DNA of 64,000 bases from Candidatus Sulfopaludibacter sp. SbA3 (GTDB lineage Bacteria > Acidobacteriota > Terriglobia > Bryobacterales > Bryobacteraceae). The stretch spans positions 124,001 through 188,000 of the forward strand of contig CAMDCN010000003.1 of assembly GCA_945890485.1 (NCBI GenBank), written 5' to 3'. The notes below the pieces were generated by a model. It saw nothing but the letters and a program-made list of their open reading frames with translations. It did no database searches and was not told the origin of the DNA. The first letter of the stretch is position 1; every line of letters starts with the position of its first letter. Both the position numbers and the translations under genes were made by a program. Below are positions 2,058 through 50,096 of this stretch, piece by piece.

Positions 2058-2063
2058 TACAAT
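2058..2063 (+). promoter_or_regulatory. Candidate -10 box (TACAAT) for thiL
   Basis: TACAAT lies exactly six bases before the GTG start of thiL. Transcription would then begin at or next to the start codon, giving a leaderless mRNA. No Shine-Dalgarno-like purine run is present in the six bases between. No clear -35 hexamer is seen 17 bp upstream. Confidence 0.45.
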
Positions 2064-2069
2064 AGGCCT

Positions 2070-2933
2070 GTGGACGAAGCCGAGCTGATAGCCCGCATCG
2101 AGAAGAGCCTCGCCCGCCGCGGCCTCGCCACCGGCAACGGGATCATCACCGGAATCGGCGACGATTGCGCCATTTTCCGCCCACGCTCCGGCGACGATCT
2201 CCTCTTCACGACCGATCAGATGCACCAGGATCGCCATTTCACCGCCGCGACTGCCGCATGGCAAGTCGGGCACACAGCGCTCGCCCGCTCTCTGTCGGAC
2301 ATCGCCGCCATGGGTGGACGTCCCCTGTTCACTATCGTCGCCCTCGCCTCGAACGATCCCGCCTGGATTGACCAGTTCTATGCCGGCTTCCTCGCCCTCG
2401 CCGAAAAGCACCACGTCATCCTCGCCGGAGGCGACCTCTCCTCGACGCCGACGCCCTCCTGTGACGTCATGGTCTGCGGCGCCGTCCCCCGAGGCCGGGC
2501 CCTGCTCCGCTCGAAAGCCCGGCCGGGCGATACCCTCTACGTCTCCGGCCCGCTGGGCGCCGCTGCCCTAGCTCTCGAACGCGGCCGCCCCCGTCTCCCG
2601 GCGCCGCAGCTGGCGATGGGGCAGACACTCTACGCCCAAGGCGTCCGTTGCGCCATGGATCTCTCCGATGGCCTCTCCATCGACCTCCGCCGCCTCTGCG
2701 TCGCCAGCGGTGTCTCGGCCCATCTCGACAGCGTCCCTCGTGCTCGCGGCGCCAGTCTCCACCAAGCACTCCACGGCGGCGAGGACTACGCGCTCCTCTT
2801 CACCTCCCGCAAGCCAATTCCGAACGCCATCGCCATCGGCCGCATCACGAAGTCCAATCCCGGCGAGGTCTTCTTTGACGATAGGCCACTGCCCCCGTTA
2901 GGTTGGGACCACTACCATGAACCCAGTTCTTGA
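2070..2933 (+). CDS. thiL: Thiamine-monophosphate kinase
   Basis: This 287-residue protein has the ThiL/PurM-type ATP-grasp-like fold signatures: the Mg/ATP-binding GIGDDCA near residues 28-34, the SLSDIAAMGG block, the GGDLSSTP block, and the late MDLSDGLSIDLRR and HGGEDYALL motifs. It phosphorylates thiamine monophosphate to thiamine diphosphate, the last step of cofactor synthesis in the cytoplasm. It is slightly shorter than typical ThiL (about 320 residues). The GTG at 2070 is chosen because the conserved N-terminus begins there. Its 3' end overlaps the next gene by 17 bp, so the two are probably co-translated. No TPP riboswitch can fit in the 25 bp upstream. Confidence 0.92.
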   Translation: MDEAELIARIEKSLARRGLATGNGIITGIGDDCAIFRPRSGDDLLFTTDQMHQDRHFTAATAAWQVGHTALARSLSDIAAMGGRPLFTIVALASNDPAWIDQFYAGFLALAEKHHVILAGGDLSSTPTPSCDVMVCGAVPRGRALLRSKARPGDTLYVSGPLGAAALALERGRPRLPAPQLAMGQTLYAQGVRCAMDLSDGLSIDLRRLCVASGVSAHLDSVPRARGASLHQALHGGEDYALLFTSRKPIPNAIAIGRITKSNPGEVFFDDRPLPPLGWDHYHEPSS

Positions 2934-3891
2934 TCTCATTGAAGCCTTCCGCCGCTCGCAGGTGCTGTTCACCGCCGTCCACCTCGGCGTCTTCGATCTT
3001 CTTGCCACGGGCCACACCGCCCCGGCCATCGCCAACCGTCTCGCCGCGGACCTGCGCGCGACCGAACTCCTGCTCGACGCCTGCGTCAACCTCGGCCTGC
3101 TCACGAAAGCCGATGGCCGCTACCGCAACACCCCGGACGCCGAGCGCTACTGTACCCGGTCGAGCCCCGAGACTCTCGCCGGATACATGCTCTACTCCCG
3201 TGATGTCCTATGGCATCTCTGGGCCAACCTCCCGGACGCCGTCCGCGAAGGTTCCCACCGCTGGCCGCAAACCTTCCAACTCGACTCCAGCGCCGACATC
3301 TTCCGCCACTTCTTCCGCACGCCCGAGTCCCTCACGACGTTCCAGCAAGGCATGCATGGTTTCGGCCTGCTCTCCTCGCCCAAGGTCGTAGCGGCGTTTG
3401 ACTTGAGTGGTTTTCAGCACCTCTGCGACCTCGGCGGCGGTACTGGCCACCTTGCCGCCGCAGCCCGCGCGCACTGGCCCAACCTTTCCGCCAGCGTCTT
3501 CGATCTGCCCGCCGTCATCGAAGCCTATCCGGTTCCCGGAGTCCAAGGCATCGCCGGAGACTTCTTCGCCGACCCGCTGCCCGCCGCGGATCTTTATGCC
3601 CTTGGCCGCATCGTCCACGACTGGTCCACGCCGAAGGTTGAAACCCTGCTCACCAAAATCTACGCCGCCCTGCCCGCCGGCGGCGGCCTCCTCCTCGCCG
3701 AAGCCATTCTTGACGACGACCACACCGGCCCCCGCCACGCCGTCTTCCAATCCCTGAACATGCTCACCTGCACCGAAGGCCGCGAACGCTCGGTGCCGGA
3801 ATACCAAGCCCTGCTCGAAGCCATCGGCTTCGTCGACGTCCAAGCCCGCCGCACCGGAGCCCCTCTTGATGCGATCCTTGCTCGCAAGTAG
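2917..3891 (+). CDS. SAM-dependent O-methyltransferase (acetylserotonin OMT-like)
   Basis: The 324-residue protein has an N-terminal winged-helix dimerisation domain (about 1-100) and a C-terminal Rossmann methyltransferase domain. The SAM-binding motif I is LGGGTG at 172-177, and the likely catalytic-base His sits in RIVHDW (His234). This arrangement is that of plant-type and polyketide O-methyltransferases (acetylserotonin OMT/CrtF/TcmN families). The substrate cannot be read from the sequence. It overlaps thiL by 17 bp and the next gene by about 23 bp, so it is inside an operon. No polyketide synthase or other biosynthetic core lies near, so a link to a secondary metabolite is not supported here. 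Confidence 0.8.
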   Translation: MNPVLDLIEAFRRSQVLFTAVHLGVFDLLATGHTAPAIANRLAADLRATELLLDACVNLGLLTKADGRYRNTPDAERYCTRSSPETLAGYMLYSRDVLWHLWANLPDAVREGSHRWPQTFQLDSSADIFRHFFRTPESLTTFQQGMHGFGLLSSPKVVAAFDLSGFQHLCDLGGGTGHLAAAARAHWPNLSASVFDLPAVIEAYPVPGVQGIAGDFFADPLPAADLYALGRIVHDWSTPKVETLLTKIYAALPAGGGLLLAEAILDDDHTGPRHAVFQSLNMLTCTEGRERSVPEYQALLEAIGFVDVQARRTGAPLDAILARK

Positions 3892-5122: not shown

Positions 5123-5125
5123 ACT
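5120..5125 (+). promoter_or_regulatory. Possible -10 box (TAAACT) for the DUF4380 gene
   Basis: TAAACT lies nine bases before the ATG at 5135, overlapping the stop codon of the previous gene. If used, the leader would be only about three bases. The placement resembles the other start-proximal hexamers in this window, but this one is less exact, and the gene may simply be cotranscribed from upstream. Confidence 0.2.
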
Positions 5126-5134
5126 GACGGTTTC

Positions 5135-8774: not shown

Positions 8775-9658
8775 TAGCCCTTTCGGGCGCGCACGATGAG
8801 GTCCTTGCGGGTCTTCACCTTTACGTCCACCCGGTGGAACAAGCCATCCGCCTTCAGCGGTTCCGGACGATAGAGCACGTTGTACTGGTGCCGTAGCTCG
8901 TTCGAGATGTTCTCAAACGACTGCGACAACTCGCGCGCCTGGAAAGGGAAGAACGCCATGCCGCCGGTCTCGGTGGAGAAGTAGCGAAGAACCTTATCGC
9001 CGTCTTTTTCGAGTTTGCTGTTGTTGGTCGAAATCGTATAGACCACGACGTCGGCCTTCTGCGCCATCTCCAGCGCCTGATCGCGCGTGTAGCGGCTGGC
9101 GTTATCGTCGCCGTCCCCCAGCACCACCATCGCCCGGCGGAACTTATGACGGGGCTGATCCTGCATCAGCTTGTCGCGGCACGCAAAATAGATGGCTTCA
9201 TAGAGCGCCGTGCCGCCGCCCGGCCGTAGGCTGCGGATGGCCTTCGCGAGCAACTCGGTGTTCCCCGTCAGGTCGGCGACGAGTTCGGCGCCCGAGTCGT
9301 AGCTGACGATCACTGCCTTGTCTTCGGGGCGGACGACGGAGTTGACGAACTCCACCGCGGCTTCCTGCTGGAACTTAAAACGGTCGCGAACGCTATTGGA
9401 AGAGTCGACGAGAATGCCAAGGCGGAGGGGCAGGTCGGACTCGGCGACGAACTCCAGGATCTGCTGCTCCTTCTTCTCCTCGCGGATTTCGAAGTCGTCC
9501 TTCGTCAGGTTGGTGACGAACCGGCCCTTTTTGTCCGTAACCGTGAACAGCATGTTCACGCGGGCGACATCGAGCACGATCCGGGCCTGCTCGTCGGTCG
9601 CTTGTTGCGCCGCCGCCGGAATAGCCGCCAGGGAACTGAGGAAGGTGCGTCGATTCAT
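8756..9658 (-). CDS. VWFA-related secreted protein (acidobacterial type)
   Basis: The 300-residue protein has an N-terminal signal (NRRTFLSSLAAIPAAA), a short beta region (about 27-75) and a von Willebrand factor A domain with the metal-ion-dependent adhesion site DSSNS at 85-89 and GGGTALYEAI further on. This architecture matches the VWFA-related family that is greatly expanded in Acidobacteriota. VWA domains mediate metal-dependent protein-protein contacts; the partner is unknown. It is translationally coupled to the pseudouridine synthase upstream (ATGA overlap at 9655-9658). Its 3' end overlaps the sulfatase gene tail to tail by 19 bp. Confidence 0.85.
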   Translation of the reverse strand: MNRRTFLSSLAAIPAAAQQATDEQARIVLDVARVNMLFTVTDKKGRFVTNLTKDDFEIREEKKEQQILEFVAESDLPLRLGILVDSSNSVRDRFKFQQEAAVEFVNSVVRPEDKAVIVSYDSGAELVADLTGNTELLAKAIRSLRPGGGTALYEAIYFACRDKLMQDQPRHKFRRAMVVLGDGDDNASRYTRDQALEMAQKADVVVYTISTNNSKLEKDGDKVLRYFSTETGGMAFFPFQARELSQSFENISNELRHQYNVLYRPEPLKADGLFHRVDVKVKTRKDLIVRARKGYYAPRA

Positions 9659-10557
9659 AAACTGCCTGACTCGATTATATCTTCGAGCTCACGTGGCAAA
9701 GGGGCTTCCACGGTAATGCGCTCTCCCGTGCCGGGGCTGCGGAAGTCCAGGCGAGCCGCATGGAGGAAAAAGCGGTCCGTGAGCAGCTCCGTGGCGCGGG
9801 CGCCATAAAGGCGATCGCCGAGAATTGGAAGTCCCAGCGAGGACAGATGCACGCGGATCTGGTGCGTCCGTCCTGTCCCGATCTTCACTTCGACCAGCGC
9901 GTGCTTGGCAAAGCGCCGGAGCACCTTCCAATCGGTTAGGGCGTGACGTCCGGCTTCGAGGCGGCAGGTCATCTTCGTCCGATGGACGGGGTCCCGGGTG
10001 ATGGGCTTTTCGACGCGGCCGCTATCGGTCTTCGGCAAGCCTTGGACGACGGCAAGATAGATCTTGTCGACCTCGCGGCTGGCGAACTGTTCGCTCAGTG
10101 AGCGATGCGCGGCGTCGGTCCGCGCGACTACCAGAACGCCGCTTGTCTCCTTGTCGAGACGGTGAACGATCCCTGGGCGCTCGTCGCCACCAGCCGTAGA
10201 GAGCTGGCCGAAGTGATGCAGCAAGGCGTTGACGAGGGTGCCGGTGTGCTGCCCGGCGCCAGCGTGGACGACGACCCCGGCGGCCTTGTTGACGACGACG
10301 ACATCATCGTCCTGATAAAGCACGGTGAGAGGAAGGTCTTCGGCTTCGGCGCGGAGCGGAGGGCGCTCCATCGGTTCGACGTCCACGCGCTCGCCACCCT
10401 TTAGGACAAGGGAAGCCTTTGGCGTGGTTCCGTCCACCTGTACGCGTCCCGCCTTAACCCACTCCTGCAGGCGGGAGCGGCTGAACTCCGGCAACTTACC
10501 CTGCAGATAGTGATCGAGGCGCTGGCCCTTTCCGGTGTCATCGACATGAAACTCCAC
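9655..10557 (-). CDS. rluD: RluD-type 23S rRNA pseudouridine synthase
   Basis: The 300-residue protein has an N-terminal S4 RNA-binding domain (QRLDHYLQGKLPEFSRSRLQ) and a RluA-family catalytic domain. The catalytic Asp is in the HRLDKETSG motif, and GRTHQIRVHL follows. Members convert uridines of 23S rRNA helix 69 to pseudouridine (RluD) or related sites, so the exact target is less certain than the family. The GTG at 10557 is chosen because upstream sequence is the promoter of divergent galU; the frame stays open further up but that part is not conserved-looking. GATACT lies six bases before the GTG, which fits a leaderless start. It is followed by the VWA gene with a 4-bp overlap. Confidence 0.88.
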   Translation of the reverse strand: MEFHVDDTGKGQRLDHYLQGKLPEFSRSRLQEWVKAGRVQVDGTTPKASLVLKGGERVDVEPMERPPLRAEAEDLPLTVLYQDDDVVVVNKAAGVVVHAGAGQHTGTLVNALLHHFGQLSTAGGDERPGIVHRLDKETSGVLVVARTDAAHRSLSEQFASREVDKIYLAVVQGLPKTDSGRVEKPITRDPVHRTKMTCRLEAGRHALTDWKVLRRFAKHALVEVKIGTGRTHQIRVHLSSLGLPILGDRLYGARATELLTDRFFLHAARLDFRSPGTGERITVEAPLPRELEDIIESGSL

Positions 10558-10563: not shown

Positions 10564-10569
10564 AGTATC
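10564..10569 (-). promoter_or_regulatory. Candidate -10 box (GATACT) for the rluD-like gene
   Basis: Read on the minus strand, GATACT ends six bases before the GTG at 10557. It overlaps, on the opposite strand, the TATCCT proposed for galU, so one near-symmetrical AT patch may start transcription both ways. Confidence 0.35.
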
Positions 10570-10571
10570 CT
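10566..10571 (+). promoter_or_regulatory. Candidate -10 box (TATCCT) for galU
   Basis: TATCCT ends six bases before the galU GTG, so the predicted first transcribed base is the start codon itself. There is no Shine-Dalgarno run between the two. Confidence 0.4.
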
Positions 10572-10577: not shown

Positions 10578-11462
10578 GTGATCCGCAGCGCGATAGTTCC
10601 TGTAGCCGGCCACGGCACCCGACTCCTTCCGGCAACGAAGTCCCAGCCCAAGGAGATGCTTCCCGTTGCTCGCAAACCGATCGTCCAGTATGTAGCCGAA
10701 GAACTCGTCGCCAACGGCATTGAGAACATCTGCTTTGTCACCGGGCGCAGCAAGACGTCCATCGAGAATCATTTCGATTCCGATCCGGAGTTGACCCGCG
10801 TCCTGACCGAAGGCAAGAAGCAGGAGTTGCTCGACGAATTGAAGTTCGAGGATTTGGCGGCGAAGTTCTACTACACCCGGCAGCGCGTGCAGCGGGGCCT
10901 CGGCGATGCCATCCTCTGCGGCGAAAACTTCGCCGGCGAATCGCCCTTCCTTGTCGCGCTCGGCGATTCCATTCTCGGCCTCAACGCGCAGTCCCGTAGC
11001 GTCGCCCGCATGTCGGAGCTGTTCGCCGAACTGCGCGCGACCTGCATCATCGCCGTCGAAGAGGTGCCCGCCAACGAGGTACATCACTACGGCATCATCG
11101 ATCCCGGCGAGGGGGAGGCGGACTGGACGCGCATTCGCAACATCGTCGAAAAGCCGTCGATCGACTCGGCGCCCAGCCGCTGGGCAGTGGCCGGCCGCTA
11201 TGCCTTTTCTCCGATCATCTTCGATATGATCCGCCGGGTGCAGCCGGATAAGCGCGGCGAGATTCAGTTGACGAGCGCCATTCAACACCTTTGCGAAGAG
11301 GGCAAGCGCGTGGTTGCGCTGAAGCTGCCTCCGCAGGACAAACGCTACGACATCGGAAACTTCCCGAGCTACTTCGAGACCTTTGTCGAATTCGCTCTGG
11401 CCGATCCGCTCTACGGCGCGGAGTTCCGCGTGACTCTCGAAAGGCTGCTCGGACGGAAATGA
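10578..11462 (+). CDS. galU: UTP--glucose-1-phosphate uridylyltransferase
   Basis: The 294-residue protein begins with the nucleotidyltransferase signature AGHGTRLLPATKSQPKEMLP, whose Gly-rich loop and Lys bind UTP, and continues with KPIVQYVAEE, ITGR-like FVTGRSK and the metal-binding VALGDSI. It makes UDP-glucose from UTP and glucose-1-phosphate for polysaccharide, LPS and trehalose synthesis. The usual length is about 290-300, so it is complete. The GTG at 10578 is the only reasonable start: the conserved IVPVAGHGTR strand begins five residues later. It shares a 20-bp divergent spacer with the rluD-like gene and overlaps the next gene (ATGA). galE, 3 kb on, uses its product. Confidence 0.95.
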   Translation: MIRSAIVPVAGHGTRLLPATKSQPKEMLPVARKPIVQYVAEELVANGIENICFVTGRSKTSIENHFDSDPELTRVLTEGKKQELLDELKFEDLAAKFYYTRQRVQRGLGDAILCGENFAGESPFLVALGDSILGLNAQSRSVARMSELFAELRATCIIAVEEVPANEVHHYGIIDPGEGEADWTRIRNIVEKPSIDSAPSRWAVAGRYAFSPIIFDMIRRVQPDKRGEIQLTSAIQHLCEEGKRVVALKLPPQDKRYDIGNFPSYFETFVEFALADPLYGAEFRVTLERLLGRK

Positions 11463-12805
11463 CCCGCGCGCGCGTCCTGCTTCCGCTGCTCTTCGCAGTG
11501 GTTCTGGCCGTGCGGCTCGGGCACCACTCGCTCGTCTGGGTGGAGGAAGGGTATCCGGCGGCGGCCGCGCTGGCGCTGCAGCAGGGCGCCTGGCTGTACC
11601 GCGATGTGTGGTTCGACAAGCCACCGGGGTCCGCGTTTCTGTACCTGCTTTGGGGCGCGCAAACCGGTTGGTTGCTGCGCTTGGCCGGGGCCGCCTACAT
11701 CACCCTGGCGGCCTATGCCGCCTACCGGTTCGCGCGCTCGGAGTGGGGCAAGCGTGAGGGCGCGATTGCGGCCGGGCTATTAGCGTTCTTTCTCACGTTC
11801 ACCGTGCCGAGCGCGGCGCTGGTGCTGGGCCCGGACATGCTGCTCATCGTGCCGCACCTGATGGCGGTGCACTACGCATGGCGGGGGCGGCCGTGGCTCA
11901 GCGGCTTCTGGTGCGGAGCGGGGCTGCTCGTAAACACCAAGGCGATGTTTGTAGCCGCCGTGTGCGGGTTCTGGCTGTACCGGTCGCTCCCGGCGTTCGG
12001 CTTGGCCGTTCTGACTCCGCAACTGTTGCTTTTGCCGGTGGCCCGCGAGTATTGGCAGCAGGTGTGGGCTTGGGGGATGGCCTATTCCCGGGACACATTC
12101 GTCGCGCAACCTTGGCGCGAGGCGTTGGTGCGGACGGGGAACTGGCTCGGGTTTCAAGCGGCAGCCGTGCTGGCGGGAGGATGGTTTCTACGCCAAGGGC
12201 CGGGGCGGCGGCGCTGGCTGCTCTGGCTGGCGATTTCGTTCGTGGCTGTGGCGGCGGGGCTGCGGTTCTTCCCGCGGTACTACTTCCATGTACTGCCGGT
12301 AGTGGTGCTGCTCGCGAGCCGTGGGTTCGTTTTGCTGCCGCGGCGTTGGGCCCTGGCGGTCAGCCTGCTGTTGCTGATTCCGCTAGTCCGCTTTGGCCCG
12401 CGCTACTACTGGCACGAGGGCTGGGCGGACCTGGCGATGGAACGTGACAGCCGGGCCGCGTCCGAACGGCTTGCCGGTTGCCAAAGCTTATTCGTATGGG
12501 GCTACCGGCCCGATATCTACGCGATGAGCGGCTGCCGCCCCGGAACGCCATACCTGGATTCGCAGCCCCTCACCGGCGTGATGGCCGACCGGCATCTGAC
12601 GTCCGTCGAGCCCACCGTGCCGGGCGACCGGAGCCGGTTGGTCCACTACCGGCCCCACTACGTCGTGGACGGGCTGGGACCGTACAACCCGAAGCTGGCA
12701 ATGAGCCAGTACCCGGACCTGGCCGGGTGGCTGGCGCAATATGAAGAGATCGGCCGCACGGCGGGGACGATTATTTACCGCGTCCGTCCAACTGCCACTG
12801 AGTGA
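11459..12805 (+). CDS. Membrane glycosyltransferase, GT39/PMT-like
   Basis: The 448-residue protein has about ten hydrophobic segments in its first 330 residues and a soluble C-terminal part. Near the N-terminus VEEGYPAAAALALQQGAWLYRD then FDKPPGSAFLYL matches the acidic loop and KPP motif of the dolichyl-phosphate-mannose/ArnT-type family (PMT_2). Such enzymes transfer a sugar from a polyprenyl-phosphate donor to a periplasmic acceptor. The first acidic position is EE rather than the usual DE. The start at 11459 overlaps the galU stop (ATGA), which ties it to nucleotide-sugar supply. Its last 35 bp overlap the convergent ThDP-enzyme gene. Confidence 0.75.
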   Translation: MTRARVLLPLLFAVVLAVRLGHHSLVWVEEGYPAAAALALQQGAWLYRDVWFDKPPGSAFLYLLWGAQTGWLLRLAGAAYITLAAYAAYRFARSEWGKREGAIAAGLLAFFLTFTVPSAALVLGPDMLLIVPHLMAVHYAWRGRPWLSGFWCGAGLLVNTKAMFVAAVCGFWLYRSLPAFGLAVLTPQLLLLPVAREYWQQVWAWGMAYSRDTFVAQPWREALVRTGNWLGFQAAAVLAGGWFLRQGPGRRRWLLWLAISFVAVAAGLRFFPRYYFHVLPVVVLLASRGFVLLPRRWALAVSLLLLIPLVRFGPRYYWHEGWADLAMERDSRAASERLAGCQSLFVWGYRPDIYAMSGCRPGTPYLDSQPLTGVMADRHLTSVEPTVPGDRSRLVHYRPHYVVDGLGPYNPKLAMSQYPDLAGWLAQYEEIGRTAGTIIYRVRPTATE

Positions 12806-14396
12806 AGGGAGAGCGGGCGCCCTGGACGTTGACGTTGAGGACGTATGGCACCTGAGAGCGAAAAGCGCGGTCGAGCGCGGGCCCGATCTGGCTGAGTTTT
12901 GTGATGTTCTCGCCGCCGCAGCCGAAGCCGCGAGCCACCTGATCGTAGCGAGTGCGGCGGAGTTCGCAGGCGACCGTCGAGCCGAGCAGCTCGCCCTGCA
13001 GTTCGCGTTCCAGGCCCCAGCCGCCGTCGTTGCCGACGACGATCACGAGCGGCAGCTTGTAGCGAACGGCCGTATCCAGTTCGGCGAGATAGAAGCCGAA
13101 GGAGCCGTCGCCGGTGACCATCATTACCGGCTGCTTAGGCCGGTGCATCTGCAGGGAGATCGCGTTCGGCAGGGCGGCGCCGATGGTGGCCATGGGGCCG
13201 AGGCGGAGCCAGCCGCCGGGGTGGTTGGCAGGCAACATACAGCGGCCCCAATGGACGAAGTCGCCGCCGTCCCAGGAGAGGAGCGGGTCGACCGGAAGGG
13301 TGCGGCGGAGCTCCGCGAAGAACGACGCCGGGTGCAGTACTTTGTCAGCCACGTGGGCGGCGGCGAGAGCGTCGAGTTCGGCGGGCCAAGTCGTCGTCGC
13401 AACCCAGGTGGGCGCCTTCCATTTGCCAACCTTGGCGTTGAGGGCTTCGAGCACCTGGCGGACGTCAGCGCAGAGGGCGACGGAGAGTTCGCGGTTCAGG
13501 CCAAGCTCGGGGCCATGAATATCCACTTGGGCAAACTTGGCATCCGGCGAGAAGAGCCGAGGTCCGCCCAAGGCGAGCCGATAGTCAATGCGCTTGCCAA
13601 GCACCAGGACAACGTCGGCCTGCCGGAAGACCTCGACGCAGGCACGGTTGAGCGAGGGGTCGGCGTAGCCGAGGCTGGGCGCCAAGCCGCGGGCCATGGT
13701 GACGTCGTAGTAGGGGAGTTGAGAGCGTTCGAGAAACTCGCGGAGGGGCAGGCCCGCATCGGCCCACCAAAGTCCACTGCCGCCGATGACGACGGGCCGC
13801 TTGGCGGACTTCAGGAGACGCAGGAGTGGGGAAACATCCGGCGGGCCCGCCAGCGGCACGGCTTGCGGAGCGCGGGGTGCGGCGGCGGCCGGGACGCGGA
13901 AGCAATCGACGGGAATGGTGAGATGAGCGACGCCCATGCGTCCAGTGGATGCCTCGCTGTAGGCTTTGCCGAGGGCAAAGGGAATCTGCGAGGCGGACGT
14001 GACGGTATGCGCCCACTTGGCGGCGGGGGCGGCCATGGCTGCCTGGTCAAGATCCTGAAAAACAACCCGATGGCGCATGAGCTGAGCGGGCGCGCCGCTG
14101 ACGGCGATGAGCGGCGTCCCGTTCGAATTGGCCGTCGCGAGGCCAGTCAGCGAATTCGTATGGCCCGGGCCTCCGGTGACGAGCGAGAGCGCGGGGCGGC
14201 GGGTGCAGCGCGCCCAGGCGTCCGCGGCATGCACGACGGCTGCTTCATGGCGCATATGGATGATCTCGATGTCGCTCCCCGCCGACTGGGAGAGCACCTC
14301 GTTCAGATGGTCCCCGATGAGGGTGAAGATGCGATCGATCCCCAGCGTCTTGAGCGTGCCGAGGAATGCCGCGGCGCCATTACCGGTGTCTGCCAT
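12771..14396 (-). CDS. Thiamine-diphosphate-dependent enzyme (acetolactate synthase-like)
   Basis: The 541-residue protein has the three-domain ThDP layout: N-terminal Pyr domain with catalytic Glu51 in MRHEAAVVHAADAW, a central Rossmann-like domain (GGSGLWW), and a C-terminal PP domain with the cofactor motif GDGSFGF...NDGGWG. This is the family of acetolactate synthase, oxalyl-CoA decarboxylase, 2-hydroxyacyl-CoA lyase and benzoylformate decarboxylase. The missing ilvN/ilvC neighbours argue against branched-chain synthesis, and the substrate stays open. Its ATG is only 14 bp from the divergent galE ATG. Its 3' end overlaps the glycosyltransferase gene by 35 bp. Confidence 0.82.
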   Translation of the reverse strand: MADTGNGAAAFLGTLKTLGIDRIFTLIGDHLNEVLSQSAGSDIEIIHMRHEAAVVHAADAWARCTRRPALSLVTGGPGHTNSLTGLATANSNGTPLIAVSGAPAQLMRHRVVFQDLDQAAMAAPAAKWAHTVTSASQIPFALGKAYSEASTGRMGVAHLTIPVDCFRVPAAAAPRAPQAVPLAGPPDVSPLLRLLKSAKRPVVIGGSGLWWADAGLPLREFLERSQLPYYDVTMARGLAPSLGYADPSLNRACVEVFRQADVVLVLGKRIDYRLALGGPRLFSPDAKFAQVDIHGPELGLNRELSVALCADVRQVLEALNAKVGKWKAPTWVATTTWPAELDALAAAHVADKVLHPASFFAELRRTLPVDPLLSWDGGDFVHWGRCMLPANHPGGWLRLGPMATIGAALPNAISLQMHRPKQPVMMVTGDGSFGFYLAELDTAVRYKLPLVIVVGNDGGWGLERELQGELLGSTVACELRRTRYDQVARGFGCGGENITKLSQIGPALDRAFRSQVPYVLNVNVQGARSPFTQWQLDGRGK

Positions 14397-14410: not shown

Positions 14411-15385
14411 ATGTCCAACATCCTCGTAACAGGTGGGGCGGGTTATATCGGCTCGCACACCGTCCACCAGCTTCTTCAGCGTGGCTACAACGTAACGGTA
14501 CTTGACGATCTTTCCACCGGATTCCGCGACGCGGTTCCGGAGCCTCGGCTGCACATCTGCTCCTTATTCGATACCGAGCAGGTAACCCAGCTTCTGGTAC
14601 GGCAGAAGATTGATGCCGTCGTCCATTTTGCGGCGTTCATCGCCGTCGGCGAATCGACGAAGGAACCAGAGAAGTACTTTACGAATAATGTCGCCGGGAG
14701 CCTGTCGCTATTCAGCGCGATGGCAGCCGCGGGCGTGAAAAAGTTGGTGTTTTCCTCGACGGCGGCCGTGTACGGGAATCCTGTGAGCACTCCGATTCTG
14801 GAGACCGCGACGATTGCGCCGGTGAATCCGTATGGGGAGACGAAGGCGACTGTGGAACGCGCGCTGGTATGGCTGGATCAATGCCGCGGCCTGCGCAGCG
14901 TACGGTTGCGCTACTTCAACGCCTGCGGCGCCAATGCGGAAGCGGGCCTGAGCGAACGCCACGTGCCGGAGACGCATCTGATCCCGCTGCTGCTGAAGGC
15001 GGTGGTGACCGGGCAGCCGATGACGATCTTCGGGACGGACTATCCGACAGCGGACGGAACCTGTATCCGCGATTACATCCACGTGGACGACCTGGCGGCG
15101 GCTCATATCGCGGCGATCGAGCATTTGCTGGGGGACGGCGAGAGCGACGTGTTCAACGTGGGGACGGGACGCGGCTTCTCGGTTCGCGAGGTATTGGCGG
15201 CCGTGGAGAACGTAACGGGTAAACCGGTGCCTCACGTGTTTGGCGACCGCCGCGAAGGCGACCCGGCGGAGTTGGTGGCCGACTCGTCCAAGCTGCGCAG
15301 CCGGTTGGGTTGGCGACCGGAGTATACGGAACTGGAACGGATCGTCGCCTCGGCATGGCCCAGCGAACAACGCCGCTGGGCGTAG
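14411..15385 (+). CDS. galE: UDP-glucose 4-epimerase
   Basis: The 324-residue extended short-chain dehydrogenase has the NAD-binding GGAGYIGSH at the N-terminus, the catalytic Ser/Thr in SSTAAVYG, the YGETK active-site Tyr-Lys pair, and late RDYIHVDDLA and NVGTG motifs. It interconverts UDP-glucose and UDP-galactose for surface polysaccharides. Length and motifs are typical, so the gene looks intact. It starts 14 bp from the divergent ThDP-enzyme gene. Substrate specificity (UDP-Glc or UDP-GlcNAc) cannot be settled from motifs. Confidence 0.93.
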   Translation: MSNILVTGGAGYIGSHTVHQLLQRGYNVTVLDDLSTGFRDAVPEPRLHICSLFDTEQVTQLLVRQKIDAVVHFAAFIAVGESTKEPEKYFTNNVAGSLSLFSAMAAAGVKKLVFSSTAAVYGNPVSTPILETATIAPVNPYGETKATVERALVWLDQCRGLRSVRLRYFNACGANAEAGLSERHVPETHLIPLLLKAVVTGQPMTIFGTDYPTADGTCIRDYIHVDDLAAAHIAAIEHLLGDGESDVFNVGTGRGFSVREVLAAVENVTGKPVPHVFGDRREGDPAELVADSSKLRSRLGWRPEYTELERIVASAWPSEQRRWA

Positions 15386-15388
15386 AAT
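15383..15388 (+). promoter_or_regulatory. Candidate -10 box (TAGAAT) for the amidohydrolase gene
   Basis: TAGAAT overlaps the galE stop codon and ends six bases before the ATG at 15395. This predicts a leaderless transcript. No Shine-Dalgarno sequence is present. Confidence 0.4.
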
Positions 15389-16683: not shown

Positions 16684-16689
16684 TACATT
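16684..16689 (+). promoter_or_regulatory. Candidate -10 box (TACATT) for the S41 peptidase gene
   Basis: TACATT ends six bases before the ATG at 16696. It sits inside a small perfect inverted repeat CTTGA-N5-TCAAG (16679-16693), which also fits the T-N11-A form of LysR-type operators. A regulator overlapping a leaderless promoter is possible but unproven. Confidence 0.35.
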
Positions 16690-28159: not shown

Positions 28160-28999
28160 ATGGCTCCCGAATGGATGAAACGTTGGCTGCTGGCGGCCGG
28201 AATCTACAACATAGCCTGGGGCTTGCTGGTGGGGTTGTGGCCGAACCTGATGTTCGATTGGGCGGGGATGGAGCGGCCGAACTACCCGGAGTTGTGGCAG
28301 TGTATCGCGATGATTGTTGGCGTTTATGGTGTTGGGTACGCGATTGCTTCGCTCGATCCGTATCGGCATTGGCCGATTGTGTTGGTTGGCTTTCTGGGGA
28401 AATTGTTCGGGCCGATCGGGTTTGTGCAGGCGGCGGTGGAGGGGCGGTTCTCCTGGTGGTTCGGGGTGAACAACATTACGAACGATCTGATTTGGTTGAT
28501 TCCGTTCGCCTTGATTTTGAAAGGGGCCTGGACGGACCGGGGGCCGGTGGGTGATCTCAGCTCATTCCTGGCCGGGCATCGGGACGCGCTGGTGGTTTTC
28601 CTGCGGCACGCGGGCTGTACGTTTTGCCGGGAGACGCTGGCGGACGTAGCTCGGCAGCGGAAACAGATTGAGGCCGATGGCGCGAAGATCGTGCTGGTGC
28701 ACATGGGCGGCACGGAGGAGTTTTTCGCTCAGTATGGGTTGGCGGACGTCGAGCGGGTGCATGATCCGGAGCGGGCTTTGTACAAGGCGTTTGGGCTGAA
28801 GCGGGGGAACGTGTGGCAGTTGCTGGGGCCGTCCGTCTGGTGGCGCGGATTTCTGGCTTGGCGAAAGCACGGGGTGGGCTATTTGGAAGGGGACGGGTTT
28901 CAGATGCCGGGGGCGTTCGTGGTTAAGGGCGGGAAGATCGTGAAGGAGTACCGGCACGAGACGGCAGGGGATCGGCCGGACTATTGCCAGCTATCGTAG
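28160..28999 (+). CDS. Membrane domain fused to a SelL-like AhpC/TSA redoxin
   Basis: The 279-residue protein is a fusion. Residues about 8-115 hold three or four membrane helices (WLLAAGIYNIAWGLLVG, WPIVLVGFLGKLFG). Residues about 125-279 are a thioredoxin-fold domain of the AhpC-TSA_2 type with a CTFC motif at 153-156 (FLRHAGCTFCRE). The redoxin part probably reduces peroxides or disulfides, and the membrane part anchors it. The start is either GTG 28154 or ATG 28160; the ATG is preferred. It lies divergent to terC and 4 bp upstream of hemD, so it may share the redox operon. Confidence 0.72.
   Translation: MAPEWMKRWLLAAGIYNIAWGLLVGLWPNLMFDWAGMERPNYPELWQCIAMIVGVYGVGYAIASLDPYRHWPIVLVGFLGKLFGPIGFVQAAVEGRFSWWFGVNNITNDLIWLIPFALILKGAWTDRGPVGDLSSFLAGHRDALVVFLRHAGCTFCRETLADVARQRKQIEADGAKIVLVHMGGTEEFFAQYGLADVERVHDPERALYKAFGLKRGNVWQLLGPSVWWRGFLAWRKHGVGYLEGDGFQMPGAFVVKGGKIVKEYRHETAGDRPDYCQLS
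28992..28997 (+). promoter_or_regulatory. Possible -10 box (TATCGT) for hemD
   Basis: TATCGT ends six bases before the hemD ATG and lies at the end of the preceding gene. It could give a leaderless internal start, but hemD may also be read from the upstream gene. Confidence 0.25.
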
Positions 29000-33164: not shown

Positions 33165-33170
33165 TAGTGT
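33165..33170 (+). promoter_or_regulatory. Candidate -10 box (TAGTGT) for the DapA-like gene
   Basis: TAGTGT ends six bases before the ATG at 33177, directly after the terminator stem. It is a weak hexamer, but it has the same exact spacing as other start-proximal boxes in the window. Confidence 0.3.
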
Positions 33171-33176: not shown

Positions 33177-33923
33177 ATGTTGAAGATTCAGGGCATCCTC
33201 GTTCCGGTTTCGACACCGTTTGATCATCGCGGCGACGTCTACAAGGCAAAGCTGAAAAGCAATGTGGAGCGGCTGAACGCGATCAGTCTCGCAGGGTATG
33301 TGGCTGGCGGTTCTCTGCTGACGGCAGAGGAGAAAGTCCTGGTTTGGGAGTTGGTGGCGGCGAGTGCGAAGCCGGGCAAGCTGCTGGGGGCGGCGGCATC
33401 GGCGCCGAGTGTTCGGGAGACGGTGGCGTTAGCCAACCGGGCGGCGGAGTTGGGATATCACTTTGCGTTCGTGGGGGCGGCCGCGGAGTTCGGCGGAGAG
33501 ACACGCACTCTCTACTACCGGTCAGTTGCGGACGCCTCGCGGATTCCGGTGGTCGTGGACGGGGATTTGGCGCCGGAGCATCCGAACATCTTGAAAGTGG
33601 CGTTGACGCAGGAGTCGGCGCGTCTGTTCGGCGCCTTCAAAGACGGCGCGACGGCGGCGCTGGTTCCCGTGGCGAATGCGATTCCGTATTCAGTGCAACT
33701 GGTCTGGGAGGCCTACCGCCAGCGGGAAGACGAAGCGGGGGCGGACTGGCAGGAACGGATCCGGCCGCTAGTGGCCTTGGTGGAGGCGCACGGGACGCCG
33801 GCTCTGAAGTGCGCGATGGATTTGAACAGTTACTACGGTGGCGTGCCGCGGTTGCCGTTGACGCCGGTTGCGGAATGGGTCAAACCGGCGATTGCGGCGG
33901 CGCTGCACGATCTCAAGAGTTGA
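33177..33923 (+). CDS. Divergent dihydrodipicolinate synthase-family aldolase
   Basis: The 248-residue protein has a DapA/NAL-type barrel: GILVPVSTPFDHRGDV at the start, and FGAFKDGA in the position of the Schiff-base Lys. It is shorter than the usual 290-300. The GTTGE motif is reduced to GGSLLTAEE, and the YN.P block that carries the catalytic Tyr reads VDGDLAP. So the Lys is kept but Thr-Thr and Tyr seem lost. It may be an aldolase with other chemistry or an inactive relative. It does not look like lysine-pathway DapA. TAGTGT lies six bases before the ATG. Confidence 0.65.
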   Translation: MLKIQGILVPVSTPFDHRGDVYKAKLKSNVERLNAISLAGYVAGGSLLTAEEKVLVWELVAASAKPGKLLGAAASAPSVRETVALANRAAELGYHFAFVGAAAEFGGETRTLYYRSVADASRIPVVVDGDLAPEHPNILKVALTQESARLFGAFKDGATAALVPVANAIPYSVQLVWEAYRQREDEAGADWQERIRPLVALVEAHGTPALKCAMDLNSYYGGVPRLPLTPVAEWVKPAIAAALHDLKS

Positions 33924-33929
33924 TATGAT
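33924..33929 (+). promoter_or_regulatory. Candidate -10 box (TATGAT) for the DUF4440 gene
   Basis: TATGAT ends eight bases before the ATG at 33938, giving a predicted leader of about two bases. No Shine-Dalgarno site is seen. Confidence 0.4.
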
Positions 33930-44313: not shown

Positions 44314-44319
44314 TATACT
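44314..44319 (+). promoter_or_regulatory. Candidate -10 box (TATACT) for the Rieske gene
   Basis: TATACT ends eight bases before the ATG at 44328, giving a predicted leader of two bases. The surrounding 45 bp are A+T rich. No -35 consensus is obvious. Confidence 0.45.
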
Positions 44320-44825: not shown

Positions 44826-44827
44826 CC

Positions 44828-46405
44828 ATGCTGAACAAAGTGCGCGCGTGGGTGGAGGATCGCACCGGCCTGGAATCCGGGATCAACCACTTCTTAAACG
44901 AAGATATTCCAGCGTCGAGCGGCTGGCACCAGGTGTTTGGGAGCATGGCGCTGTTCATGTTTCTGGTCCAGGTGTTCACCGGGATCATGATGGCGCTGAA
45001 CTATGCGCCCACTACCGCCGAAGCGCATAGCAGCTTGCGGTACATCCTCACCGAACTGACGGCTGGGCGTTTGATGCGAGGCTTGCACCATTGGGGCGCC
45101 AGCATGATGATCTGCATCGTTGTGCTGCACATGCTTCAGGTATTCCTGTGGGGCGCCTACAAAAAACCGCGGGAAGCGACGTGGATGCTCGGCGTAGTCC
45201 TGCTGCTCCTGACTTTGGGGTTCGGGCTCACCGGCTACCTGCTGCCTTGGGACAACCGGGCGTATTGGGGTACGGTGGTGACCACGCAGATTGCCGCCAA
45301 GGCGCCGATGATGGGCCCGTACATTCTGACGTTGCTGGGAAGCGAAGATGGCCAAATTGGTTCGGTGACCTTTGCGCGCTTTTACGCCGCGCACGTTTTG
45401 ATTCTGCCTGCGGTCACGGCGCTGTTGATCTTCCTGCACGTTTATCTCGTGCGGCGTCACGGGGTGGCCCCCGCTCCGGTGGAGACCGCACCGCCGATCA
45501 AGTTCTATCCGCGCCAAGTGTTCAAGGACACGGTGGCGATTTTCGGAATGTTCGCGCTGTTGTTTGTGCTGGCGGTGGCCGTGAGAGTACCGCTGGGCAA
45601 GTTGGCCGATCCGAATGACGTCTCGTATATCCCTCGGCCGGAATGGTACTTCCTCTTTCTCTTCCAGATCCTGAAGTATTTTGAAGGGCCGCTGGAGATC
45701 GTCGGGAGCATGATTCTGCCGGGCTTGGCGGTGCTGTTGCTCTTCCTGACGCCGTTTATCGACCGGGGCAAGGCGATCGCGCTACGGCAGCGAACGGGGG
45801 CGATCGGCGTATTGTTGCTGGCCCTGATTGGCTGGGGCGGATTGACGGCGGCGGCGCTATCGACCACGCCGCATCGGGATCCGTGGAAAGGATTCACGGC
45901 CGAAGAGATGGCGGCAATTGGAACCTTCCGGCAGTCCGACTGTTGGAAGTGCCATGCGACGACGCCGGGCGAATCGCGGACGGGGCCGAATCTGGCCGAT
46001 ATTGCCGTGCTGCGCGACCGCGATTGGCTGGTAAAGCATTTCAAAGATGCCAGCGGCGAAGCGGGTAAAGCCGTGAAGGACCTGCAGTGGCGCCGCCTGG
46101 CGACATTCCTGCCGAAGTTGGACGACGAAAACGTCGAAAGCTTGCACCGGGCGCCGCAGACGATGGTGGCTGGCGCGATGGTGTACCAACAGAACAACTG
46201 CGGGGCCTGCCACGTGATCAACGGAGCCGGGATGAAGTCCGGGCCGCCGCTGAACGGTGTGGCCAAGCGGTGGGACCGAAAGTGGATGGAAGAGCACTTC
46301 ATCGATCCGGAGAGCAAGTCGCCGGGGACCATCATGCCGGCGTACAAGTTCTCGCCCGCCGACATGACCGCGATGCTCGACTACATGATGTCGCTTACTG
46401 ACTAA
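44828..46405 (+). CDS. qcrB: Cytochrome b fused to a C-terminal di-haem cytochrome c region
   Basis: The 525-residue protein has the four-helix cytochrome b core with two b-haem His pairs in helices (LHHWGASMMICIVVLHML and FYAAHVLILPAVTALLIFLH), the quinol-site PEWY at 271-274, and helices after it. From about residue 350 the membrane part ends and two c-type haem sites appear, CWKCH at 372-376 and CGACH at 458-462. So the b and c1 functions are joined, as in some Gram-positive and deep-branching bc complexes. It passes electrons from quinol to downstream carriers and moves protons. It follows the Rieske gene directly. Confidence 0.9.
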   Translation: MLNKVRAWVEDRTGLESGINHFLNEDIPASSGWHQVFGSMALFMFLVQVFTGIMMALNYAPTTAEAHSSLRYILTELTAGRLMRGLHHWGASMMICIVVLHMLQVFLWGAYKKPREATWMLGVVLLLLTLGFGLTGYLLPWDNRAYWGTVVTTQIAAKAPMMGPYILTLLGSEDGQIGSVTFARFYAAHVLILPAVTALLIFLHVYLVRRHGVAPAPVETAPPIKFYPRQVFKDTVAIFGMFALLFVLAVAVRVPLGKLADPNDVSYIPRPEWYFLFLFQILKYFEGPLEIVGSMILPGLAVLLLFLTPFIDRGKAIALRQRTGAIGVLLLALIGWGGLTAAALSTTPHRDPWKGFTAEEMAAIGTFRQSDCWKCHATTPGESRTGPNLADIAVLRDRDWLVKHFKDASGEAGKAVKDLQWRRLATFLPKLDDENVESLHRAPQTMVAGAMVYQQNNCGACHVINGAGMKSGPPLNGVAKRWDRKWMEEHFIDPESKSPGTIMPAYKFSPADMTAMLDYMMSLTD

Positions 46406-47468
46406 GCGCTGCTTCCTGGAAAGCGTGCCGGACGGGGGAATCGTCCGAATTGGCGAAGCCGGCACGCTGAACTAACAGGAGCAGAGCGATGCCCTTCTGC
46501 GGGTCGATCCAGGCCTGCGTGCCATAGGCGCCGCCGTGGCCGTGAGAGCCGGGACTGAGAAGTTTGGTGACGCCCTGCGGTTCGCGCACGACGCACCATG
46601 CCAGGCCCCAGCCATGACCGGGGGTGAAACCGGTTTTGAGATCGCCGGACTGGATGGTCGTCATCTGCTTGACGGACTCGGACTTCAGGTATCGTTTGCC
46701 ATCGAGAGTTCCTTCGTTCAGGATCATGCGCTGAAAGCGAAGGTAGTCAGCAGCGGTGGAGAACAGGCCGCCGTTCGCGGCGGGAAATGGCTCCGGGTCG
46801 AAGCCGACGGGGAGTTCGGCGGGGCCGAGCTTGCCGGTGAGCTTATCCTTGCGCACGGGTTTCACCAGCCGGGCTTTCTGCTTGGCGGTGGGGAAGAAGG
46901 TGGTGTCCTTCATGCCGAGTGGCTCAAACAGGCGCTGCGCGAGGAACTTTTCAAACGGCATGCCAGAGGCGACCTCGACGACGTGGCCGAGCGTATTGAT
47001 GCCGGATTGGCAGTACTTCCACTGGCTGCCGGTTTCGAACTGGAGCGGTTTCGAGAGGTAGGCCGGGATGAGGTCCCCGAGCTTCTTGGCTGCGGCCCAT
47101 TCCGCCGGGGTGGCTTCCGCAAGGCCCGAGGAGTGCATCAGCAAATGCTTCAGCGTGATGGCGGGATACTTCGAGAAGGCTGGGATGTGCTTGGCGACAG
47201 GGTCGTTGACGTTGAGTTTGCCCTCCTCTTGCAGCATGAGGATAGCGGTGCCCGCGACGGGCTTGGTCATGGACGCGATCCAAAAGAGGGAATCTTTCTT
47301 AACGGCTCCGGTAGCGGCGAGGTGAGTGACGTCGGAGCGGGTGGCAATGGCGGTGACAGCCCCGTGGATCTCCTGAGCGTCAATCATCTTTTGCATGGCG
47401 GCGCGGATAGGCGCGTCCTGGCCCAAGGCCAGCGCGGGGAGGAAGACGACAGCAAGAAGGCTTCGCAT
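46395..47468 (-). CDS. Exported serine hydrolase, beta-lactamase class C / EstB-like
   Basis: The 357-residue protein has a signal peptide (MRSLLAVVFLPALALG) and the beta-lactamase fold: SMTK carries the Ser-Lys dyad, WKYCQSG is the YxN-like position, and HGHGGAYG replaces KTG. These features fit penicillin-binding-protein-like esterases and D-alanyl hydrolases rather than resistance enzymes. The Tyr motif reads YCQ rather than YSN or YAN. TACGCT lies six bases before the ATG on its strand, and the start is 25 bp from the divergent gene. Its tail overlaps the cytochrome b gene by 11 bp. Confidence 0.82.
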   Translation of the reverse strand: MRSLLAVVFLPALALGQDAPIRAAMQKMIDAQEIHGAVTAIATRSDVTHLAATGAVKKDSLFWIASMTKPVAGTAILMLQEEGKLNVNDPVAKHIPAFSKYPAITLKHLLMHSSGLAEATPAEWAAAKKLGDLIPAYLSKPLQFETGSQWKYCQSGINTLGHVVEVASGMPFEKFLAQRLFEPLGMKDTTFFPTAKQKARLVKPVRKDKLTGKLGPAELPVGFDPEPFPAANGGLFSTAADYLRFQRMILNEGTLDGKRYLKSESVKQMTTIQSGDLKTGFTPGHGWGLAWCVVREPQGVTKLLSPGSHGHGGAYGTQAWIDPQKGIALLLLVQRAGFANSDDSPVRHAFQEAALSQ

Positions 47469-47474
47469 GGCGCC

Positions 47475-47480
47475 AGCGTA
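47475..47480 (-). promoter_or_regulatory. Candidate -10 box (TACGCT) for the serine hydrolase gene
   Basis: On the minus strand TACGCT ends six bases before the ATG at 47468. It abuts the TATCAT proposed for the opposite gene, so both promoters share about ten bases. Confidence 0.35.
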
Positions 47481-47484
47481 TCAT
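47479..47484 (+). promoter_or_regulatory. Candidate -10 box (TATCAT) for the gene at 47494
   Basis: TATCAT ends nine bases before the ATG, so the leader would be about three bases. A GAAGGG run lies between but would be upstream of the predicted start of transcription. Confidence 0.35.
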
Positions 47485-47493
47485 GAAGGGTTG

Positions 47494-48573
47494 ATGCCTC
47501 AAGACTGGTTGAAACTGCGGGTGTTCCCGCTGAGCGAAAGAAAAAGCCTGACCCGGGTGGAAGACATCTTGATCGATCCGGTGAGTGATCCGAAGCCCGC
47601 GCCGGGGGCCGTGGCCGAGTGCGCGGCCAAGATATTGGCGGCGCGGGAGCGGGGGGCGGCCGTGGTTTTGTTCTACGGGGCGCACCTGCTGCGGAACGGG
47701 GCGGCACTGATACTCGACCGAATGATGGAGCGCGGATGGATCACCCATGTGGCCACGAACGGCGCCGGGACGATCCACGATTGGGAGTACGCCTGGCTGG
47801 GCCGTTCGACGGAAAGCGTGGAGGAGAACGTCGCAACGGGCACGTTCGGTTCCTGGGACGAAACGGGGAAGAGCCTGCACGTGGCGATGATGGCGGGGGC
47901 GTTACGGGGCGATGGGTATGGCGCTTCACTGGGACGGTTCATCGCCGAAGACGGGGTGACTCTGCCCGAAGCAGCAGAATTGGAACGTTTGATCCGGGAG
48001 GAACCGAGGCATCCGCTGACGGCGGCGCGCGCGGATCTACTGGCGGCCGGCCTGCCGGGAGGGCGGTATGTGGTGGACCACCGCTGGAAGCACGCGTCGA
48101 TCCTCTATCATGCCTTCCGCCATGGGGTGCCGGCGACGGTGCATCCGGGAATCGGGTACGACATTATCGCGAACCATCCGCTGTTTAACGGAGCGGTGAT
48201 CGGGCGCGGGGCGGGGACGGATTTCCGGTTACTGGGCGATACGGTGGAGGGATTGGACGGGGGCGTCGTGCTTTCGGTGGGGTCGGCGATTATGGCGCCG
48301 CAGGTGTTTGAAAAGACGCTGAGCAACGTGAACAATCTGCGGTTGGGAGCGGGGCGGGGAATTGTAGCGGGGCACGAGATCTACGTGGTGGATCTGCAGG
48401 ACGGCGGCGGCTGGGACTGGACGCAGGGCGAACCGCCGAAAACGAACCCGGCCTACTACCTGCGCTTCTGCAAGAGCTTTTCGCGGATGGGCTGCCCGAT
48501 GCACTATGTGCAGCATGACAACGCCGGGTTCGTCCACAACCTGTATCGGACGCTAGAGCGACTCGTCGCCTAG
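47494..48573 (+). CDS. Conserved protein, possibly deoxyhypusine synthase-like
   Basis: I do not firmly recognise this 359-residue protein. Its pattern VLFYGAHLLRNGAALILDRMM..., WITHVATNGAGTIHDWEYAW and SVEENVATGTFGSWDET resembles the NAD-dependent deoxyhypusine synthase-like superfamily found in some bacteria, but the catalytic Lys cannot be placed by eye. A late GAGRGIVAGHEIYVVDLQDGGGWDW block may bind a nucleotide. It has no signal peptide. The ATG at 47494 is chosen because GAAGGG precedes it and the conserved part begins there. It diverges from the serine hydrolase gene and converges on hldD (21-bp overlap). Confidence 0.4.
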   Translation: MPQDWLKLRVFPLSERKSLTRVEDILIDPVSDPKPAPGAVAECAAKILAARERGAAVVLFYGAHLLRNGAALILDRMMERGWITHVATNGAGTIHDWEYAWLGRSTESVEENVATGTFGSWDETGKSLHVAMMAGALRGDGYGASLGRFIAEDGVTLPEAAELERLIREEPRHPLTAARADLLAAGLPGGRYVVDHRWKHASILYHAFRHGVPATVHPGIGYDIIANHPLFNGAVIGRGAGTDFRLLGDTVEGLDGGVVLSVGSAIMAPQVFEKTLSNVNNLRLGAGRGIVAGHEIYVVDLQDGGGWDWTQGEPPKTNPAYYLRFCKSFSRMGCPMHYVQHDNAGFVHNLYRTLERLVA

Positions 48574-49545: not shown

Positions 49546-49555
49546 AGTAACCCGC

Positions 49556-49561
49556 TATTAT
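49556..49561 (+). promoter_or_regulatory. Candidate -10 box (TATTAT) for the DinB gene, overlapping an hldD box
   Basis: TATTAT ends seven bases before the DinB ATG at 49569. The same patch read backward gives GATAAT for hldD, with a predicted leader of about five bases. Confidence 0.4.
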
Positions 49562-49568
49562 CCCTCTT

Positions 49569-50096
49569 ATGGCTTCCTTCTTTCTTGACGAATGCACCGC
49601 TGTGCTGGAGCGGACTCCAGTGGTTTTGAATGCAATGTTGCGGGGGCTTCCGGAGGCTTGGACGTCCTGTACGGAGGGAGAGGGCACGTGGAGCCCGTAT
49701 ACGGTAGTGGGGCACCTGATCCACGGGGAGAAGGCGGACTGGATGCCGCGGTTGGCGATAATTCTTGAGCACGGGACGAGTCGTCCGTTTCCGCCATTTG
49801 ATCGGGAGGCGCAGTTTCGGGAGAGTGCGGAAAGGACGCTGGACGAGTTGCTGGACGAATTCGCCGAAAGGCGGCGCGCAAGCTTGGCTCAGCTGGCGGG
49901 GATGAACATCCGACCCGAGCAGTTGGAGCTACAAGGGATGCACCCAGCGTTTGGAACGGTGACCGCGCGGCAACTGCTGGCCACGTGGACGGCGCATGAC
50001 CTCAGCCACCTGGTGCAGGTGAACCGGACGATGGCGAAACGATACCGGACTGACGTTGGTCCGTGGGCGCAATACCTATCCGTAATGGATCGATGA
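49569..50096 (+). CDS. DinB/YfiT-like four-helix-bundle metal-binding protein
   Basis: The 175-residue helical protein has the three His positions of the DinB superfamily: VVGHLIHGEKADW (His in helix 2) and TWTAHDLSHLVQ (two His in helix 4). These usually bind Ni2+ or Zn2+. Bacterial members are often thiol-S-transferase-like or stress related; the substrate is unknown. It is the only gene before tRNA-Pro, which is on the opposite strand. Confidence 0.8.
   Translation: MASFFLDECTAVLERTPVVLNAMLRGLPEAWTSCTEGEGTWSPYTVVGHLIHGEKADWMPRLAIILEHGTSRPFPPFDREAQFRESAERTLDELLDEFAERRRASLAQLAGMNIRPEQLELQGMHPAFGTVTARQLLATWTAHDLSHLVQVNRTMAKRYRTDVGPWAQYLSVMDR

Follow-up and report, generated by a model that had tools for sequence, protein, structure and literature searches.

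A TANNNT hexamer at a fixed distance before start codons points to leaderless genes in a Bryobacterales genome

In a 64,000-nucleotide stretch of the Candidatus Sulfopaludibacter sp. SbA3 genome (assembly GCA_945890485.1, contig CAMDCN010000003.1, positions 124,001 to 188,000; hereafter the window), a TANNNT hexamer ends exactly six bases before the start codons of seven genes, which raises the question of whether it is the -10 element of promoters whose transcripts begin at the start codon itself. The genes are thiL, galU, hemD and those for an amidohydrolase, an S41 peptidase, a DapA-like protein and a serine hydrolase; counted from the start codon, the hexamer begins at -12 in each. All seven hexamers reported in the initial annotation are present, as are the looser boxes that it placed before the genes for DinB (-13), DUF4440 (-14) and Rieske/qcrA (-14) and the gene at 47494 (-15). 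Its gene names agree with Pfam (Amidohydro_1, Peptidase_S41, HEM4, DHDPS, Beta-lactamase, DinB_2, DUF4440 and Rieske), thiL resting on an AIR-synthase N domain and galU on NTP_transferase; a Pfam search with the gene at 47494 gave no match. The observation is right, and its interpretation in terms of leaderless genes is very probably right as well.

The genome is a 7.1 Mb assembly from the Acidobacteriota, rated 97% complete, of which 864 kb served as our main sample (700 kb of contig C1 and 164 kb of C3, the contig that holds the window, window included). Genes were called with a home-made, self-trained caller that uses only a coding score and the type of start codon and takes no account of upstream motifs; it gave 609 genes, 608 of them usable. 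Background in this sample is the mean TANNNT count per position at -60 to -26 upstream of the called starts. Of the 608 starts, 32 have a TANNNT beginning at -12, where chance would give 5.3 per position, an enrichment of about six-fold. At -17 to -13 the counts are 15, 12, 15, 25 and 19, and on the near side of the peak they drop to 8, 2 and 2 at -11, -10 and -9; the excess over -17 to -11 amounts to about 89 genes, or 15% of the 608. This one-sided cliff fits a promoter, because any closer box would begin transcription within the gene. The initial annotation had named a lack of enrichment at -12 to -7 as the finding that would speak against leaderless genes; over the 864 kb the enrichment falls at exactly -12, with the cliff immediately downstream.

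Within the window, the caller's own starts place TANNNT at -12 in 5 of 49 genes where 0.43 are expected (P = 9e-5). The caller missed some window genes, including those for RNase T2 and DinB, and put the starts of galU and the S41 peptidase gene further downstream; since the orthologs of these two genes align as far as residue 1 of the proteins originally proposed, the exact window cases number seven. The control hexamer TGNNNT shows no excess at -12 (7 against 7.5). Of eight control hexamers counted at this position the highest was TNNNAT, which has letters in common with the box (18 against 6.7), followed by ATNNTN (13 against 7.6) and ATNNNT (12 against 6.3). A refined form of the box, TA[CGT][ACG][ACG]T, was both derived from and counted on these data; it occurs in the interval -17 to -12 in 22.8% of 206 genes with an upstream neighbor on the opposite strand, against 9.9% of 212 operon-internal genes. 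This class of box is more frequent in the first genes of transcription units. The two groups differ in background as well, with 1.13 and 0.37 per position respectively; relative to it, the operon-internal genes show at least as strong an enrichment at -12 (9 against 0.37, compared with 15 against 1.13).

The pattern is repeated in G009, a relative from the same genus, where TANNNT lies at -12 in 26 of 307 genes against a background of 2.2, an excess of 18% of genes. In 35 named Acidobacteriota loci around galU (66–82% GalU identity) the count at -12 is 32 of 378; when galU itself is removed it is 16 of 343 against 2.4, and the excess is 38 genes, or 11%. In 13 loci from Planctomycetes and Chloroflexi, 2 of 128 genes have TANNNT at -12 (1.3 expected). 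The predicted leaderless share thus appears to be about 11–18% of genes, roughly one in seven.

Both the hexamer and its spacing are conserved. An ortholog in the available G009 stretches was found for 187 of the 608 genes, 161 of them with the start codon kept; 16 of these 161 have a box at -12, and the same spacing is retained in 15 of the 16. Identity to G009 per position is 0.94–1.00 inside the hexamer against 0.69–0.88 at -40 to -18, and TANNNT hexamers further upstream are retained in 10 of 20 cases at -80 to -60 and 12 of 24 at -60 to -40, two bins that both include position -60. The clearest case of conservation is galU (TATCCT, 10566–10571, plus strand; GTG at 10578), whose predicted -10 box lies at exactly -12 in 32 of 46 relatives and within -14 to -11 in 37, the 46 being hand-picked from 80 loci, a choice that excludes the remote Acidobacteriota and other phyla and contains some near-duplicates. 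Bryobacterales bacterium F-183 (AP025252), apparently an isolate, has its galU box at -13. Of the other nine, one has its box at -10 and eight lack one in this region; the flanks of the remoter relatives differ throughout. GTG serves as the start codon in 38 of the 46, though galU looks leaderless.

For thiL, the S41 peptidase, the amidohydrolase and the DapA-like gene, at most 14 relatives were listed per gene. The predicted -10 of thiL (TACAAT, 2058–2063, plus strand; GTG at 2070) is at -12 in all six relatives listed, and that of the S41 peptidase gene (TACATT, 16684–16689, plus strand; ATG at 16696) in five of the six orthologs listed, with the sixth at -13. Of 10 orthologs listed for the amidohydrolase gene (ATG at 15395), 6 have the corresponding box (TAGAAT, 15383–15388, plus strand, in the window) at -12; the four remoter ones carry it at -15 relative to the aligned residue, and relative to an ATG one codon upstream this is again -12. 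Among 17 loci for hemD (the full-length matches of 30 loci, this genome included), the predicted -10 (TATCGT, 28992–28997, plus strand; ATG at 29004) is at -12 in eight and at -11 in eight; locus L191 has none.

The boxes themselves have further features in common with promoters of the -10-only kind, which they resemble. Among the 32 boxes at -12, A is rare at position 3 (3%) and T is rare at positions 4 (9%) and 5 (0%). TG directly precedes the box in 19 of 87 boxes of the refined form, against a background of 5.3%, and about a fifth of the boxes therefore look like extended -10 elements. No -35 element was visible in a simple scan, with TTGA or TTGC at the -35 place in 5 of 87 against 7.1% background. 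Shine-Dalgarno (SD)-like cores, found before 32% of starts in this genome, precede 9 of the 115 genes with a box and 150 of the 493 others. The initial annotation had cited the scarcity of such cores beside its leaderless reading, and they are indeed rare in box genes; their rarity is not independent support, because the hexamer fills the same space and hexamers at shifted control positions, which also exclude the SD (cores in 1 of 34, 1 of 32 and 1 of 23), give a like odds ratio.

The strict spacing, the one-sided cliff, the enrichment over control positions and control hexamers, and the conservation are all directly observed. From them we infer that the hexamer acts as a promoter, where its transcript starts and how that transcript is translated. 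We consider it highly probable that the hexamers are -10 elements of the housekeeping sigma factor that give leaderless mRNAs; the enrichment at -12, its repetition in G009 and the kept hexamer and spacing argue for this interpretation, which the initial annotation had proposed. The housekeeping sigma factor would recognize TANNNT as the -10, and polymerase would start about seven bases past the last T, at or a few bases from the start codon, to yield a leaderless mRNA. Such an mRNA would be translated by direct recognition of the 5'-terminal start codon, via 70S ribosomes or with IF2.

Among the seven genes with a box at exactly -12, three face a divergent gene at 20–25 bp: thiL the RNase T2 gene, galU that for a pseudouridine synthase, and the serine hydrolase gene the one at 47494. 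The predicted -10 of the RNase T2 gene (1400–2044, minus strand) is TAAGTT (2054–2059, minus strand), at -15, with another TANNNT at -20; this box and that of thiL, on opposite strands, share their TA in the core AACTTACAAT, and the pair is also found in G009. Likewise, the predicted -10 of the serine hydrolase gene (46395–47468, minus strand; TACGCT, 47475–47480, minus strand, at -12) and that of the gene at 47494–48573 (TATCAT, 47479–47484, plus strand) share their TA in the core AGCGTATCAT. The latter box is at -15 of ATG 47494 and -12 of TTG 47491. We set the TTG aside as the start, as it is present only in this genome, L209 and L210, while the ATG is found in nine of nine. The mRNA of this gene may carry two or three leader bases, because the conserved ATG has its box at -15. 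In the galU pair of the window, the minus side has the weak -10-like GATACT (10564–10569, minus strand) at -12 of the pseudouridine synthase gene (9655–10557, minus strand, GTG) instead of TANNNT. A galU double box was rejected as a general feature: TANNNT at -12 on both sides of a 22-bp gap was present in only 6 of 18 ortholog pairs.

Several divergent pairs have about 22–28 bp between their start codons and predicted -10 boxes that overlap on opposite strands (ANNNTANNNT). In the 864 kb, divergent gaps of 10–45 bp have a box in -19 to -11 on 18 of 28 sides, and the figures for other gaps are 9 of 38, 16 of 60 and 22 of 72 sides (wider) and 3 of 6 (smaller). The core ANNNTANNNT lies 6–9 bp from divergent in-frame candidate starts of two called genes at five sites here and eight in G009, about ten distinct sites, since five are the same loci in both; elsewhere it does so at four sites in the named loci, three of them galU, and at none in the other loci, 453 kb in all. 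The counts for five control cores were 0, 3, 0, 0, 0 / 1, 0, 0, 0, 1 / 0, 1, 1, 0, 0 sites, and the true core at wider spacings gave 0–1. Among candidate start pairs, boxes at -15 to -12 on both sides accompany 7 of 42 with a gap of 22–28 bp against 6 of 225 with other gaps here (P = 0.001); in G009 they accompany 9 of 23 against 5 of 124 (P = 1.5e-5). These P values are optimistic because candidate starts of one gene were counted separately. Counted without gene calls over 100 genomes of the order, the strict pattern (both boxes at -12) is found 349 times and its reversed control 215 times, and in single genomes the control is sometimes the larger. G094 yielded the single example seen of a double box of the 18-bp type (TANNNTA, gap 17).

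The serine hydrolase/47494 pair was compared over nine loci (the full-length matches of 20, this genome included). The sequence CAGCGTATCATG, from the region 47469–47493, is identical in this genome and eight relatives, with both flanks variable, and ATG 47494 of the plus gene has the same box spacing in all nine, in L216 measured from the second of two tandem copies. In the genome of that locus, G012, about 23 bp that include the core are repeated in tandem, which leaves a separate copy at the usual distance from each gene.

The conserved core of such short divergent pairs might instead be the binding site of a regulator, and the invariance of CAGCGTATCATG as a block in nine genomes is what such a site could produce. 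We regard this as unlikely, since the core varies between pairs except for A...TA...T and keeps a near-fixed distance to both start codons, and the doubled block in L216 leaves each gene with an adjoining copy. We think it more likely than not that the Bryobacterales contain a conserved class of divergent pairs in which one shared 10-bp double -10 (ANNNTANNNT) makes both mRNAs leaderless or nearly so, the two boxes overlapping by their TA such that one element would serve two genes. If this is true, some 22–28 bp would hold two complete promoters and both translation starts, and because polymerase could take up only one of the two directions at any moment, the genes would be coupled and the firing of their leaderless mRNAs mutually exclusive.

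For the hexamers as a whole, the alternative that survives best, while still being very unlikely, is that they belong to ordinary leadered promoters, the true starts lying further downstream and the predicted N-termini being too long. The caller did put the galU and S41 starts downstream on coding score alone. However, galU alignments reach residue 1 in most loci with the box still at -12 in the majority noted above, residue 1 is also reached by hemD in its 17 full-length loci, by the S41 peptidase in six of six and by thiL in five of six, and misplaced starts should blur the peak rather than sharpen it. Less probable again is an RNA-level signal, in which an A/U-rich, unstructured patch would aid ribosomes on leadered mRNAs that have no SD. 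The modest use of SD-like cores in this genome would suit such a signal, but the fixed TA...T with its freer middle, the one-sided cliff, the upstream TG and the sharing of boxes between two strands favor a DNA promoter. An artefact of start calling or stop codons, arising from TAG or TAA in frame at -12, is scarcely credible: -12 is indeed in frame, the amidohydrolase box doubles as an upstream stop and that of hemD touches another, but the stop-free forms TA[CT]NNT alone give 20 against 2.6 at -12, the out-of-frame positions -13 and -14 are enriched too, and upstream stops are not the general cause, because genes whose upstream neighbor is on the opposite strand show TANNNT at -12 in 17 of 206 against 2.2.

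Several observations nonetheless weigh against reading the hexamers as the -10 elements of leaderless genes. The start codons come from the home-made caller, and box genes are not SD-poor beyond the occlusion effect. Retention by itself separates weakly, because nearer control bins are also often retained in G009 (29 of 38 at -40 to -25 and 14 of 18 at -25 to -18, 25 and 12 of them with spacing). Two window boxes overlap the stop codon of the upstream gene, the TAG of the amidohydrolase box doubling as that stop and the last T of the hemD box being part of a TAG stop. Before the DapA-like gene (ATG at 33177), the hexamer TAGTGT (33165–33170, plus strand) is lost in G009, the sole relative found for this gene; of the seven exact cases, this one is doubtful. 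Small samples from other Acidobacteriota families show little signal at -12 (G094, 3 of 120; G148, 3 of 38; G033, 2 of 85; G124, 0 of 50; backgrounds 0.5, 0.2, 0.5 and 1.3), and over the whole genome the raw pattern exceeds its reversed control by a small margin (807 against 683), the excess being zero or negative in some relatives. A crude comparison of TANNNT-N6-ATG with its reversed pattern in 149 Acidobacteriota genomes pointed to strong excess in families f24, f28 and f55, with f4 showing little or none; among genomes of distant families the excess was large in G094, G148 and G124. These counts yield no map of the phylum: the gene-based check disagreed with them for G124 (f55) and was too small for G094, G148 and G033.

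Leaderless genes with a TA-like signal have been predicted in three of three Acidobacteria, with a mean of 13.3% and a range of 9.7–19.4% (Zheng et al., 2011, PMC3160421); phylum and signal just before the starts are the same as here, and the leaderless core of our finding is ordinary for the phylum, given that prediction of 2011. As presented in the relevant passages, that work is a motif count over few genomes, to which the conservation, the -10-only appearance and the sharing between divergent genes are added here. The Acidobacteria motif count thereby becomes a conserved feature of one order. In Deinococcus-Thermus, by the account in PMC12340547, a -10 adjoins the open reading frame (ORF) and leaderless mRNA was found by experiment, for about 30% of ORFs, with a -35 that enhances and is not needed. 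The likeness lies in a TANNNT beside the ORF; the genes described here are known by sequence only, and at about half that share. A search for Acidobacteria transcription start sites mapped by differential RNA sequencing (dRNA-seq) found no paper.

Divergent leaderless pairs are not new as such, because Mycobacterium tuberculosis offers an example: its leaderless mRNAs were recognized from mapped start sites, a figure legend describes divergent promoters in close juxtaposition as common, and prpD and its regulator form a divergent pair with start sites at both start codons (PMC3898074). That species belongs to another phylum, and the passages of the paper on such promoters mention neither overlapping -10 boxes nor a fixed gap from start to start. 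In the bidirectional promoters of Escherichia coli, the symmetry of the -10 serves both strands, and divergent starts lie 18 and also 10 and 23 bp apart (Warman et al., PMC12825309). Two boxes at -12 around ANNNTANNNT, with 6 + 10 + 6 bp between the start codons, would give the same 23 bp. The difference is that the start sites predicted here lie at or near both start codons, and the word 'leaderless' is absent from that text. Overlapping divergent promoters are also described for lysG/lysE of M. tuberculosis and for the EcoRV restriction-modification system, lysE having a second, leaderless start (PMC5648196, PMC5333194). According to the sections concerned, 108 bp separate lysG from lysE, whose leaderless start is distinct from the overlapping promoter, and the leaderless transcript in PMC5333194 belongs to AhdI, not to the divergent EcoRV genes. 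In the open-licence literature searched, we found no account of leaderless pairs as a class whose -10 boxes overlap and whose start codons keep a fixed gap. Shared divergent promoters, if real, would be very compact control regions for two genes. The box also helps to correct start codons in Bryobacterales, as with galU and the S41 peptidase gene, which were misplaced by coding score alone.

GalU relatives place the genome in the Acidobacteriota. The closest named record among them, at 99% GalU identity, is the metagenome-assembled genome Acidobacteria bacterium Ga0077553, and the names Bryobacterales or Bryobacteraceae stand in many of the titles that follow. A bacterial 16S ribosomal RNA family search of the whole assembly gave no match. 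Between the thiamine pyrophosphate (TPP) enzyme gene at 12771–14396 (minus strand) and the epimerase gene that starts at 14411 (plus strand) there are 14 bp from start to start, with no TANNNT at -20 to -10 on either side. The looser boxes of the window are TATGAT (33924–33929, plus strand) at -14 of the DUF4440 gene (33938), TATACT (44314–44319, plus strand) at -14 of the Rieske/qcrA gene (44328) and TATTAT (49556–49561, plus strand) at -13 of the DinB gene (49569). The start of the last gene is 23 bp from that of a divergent epimerase gene on the minus strand (49546–49568 between them), with a box on the DinB side only, and the same 23-bp pair is found in G009.

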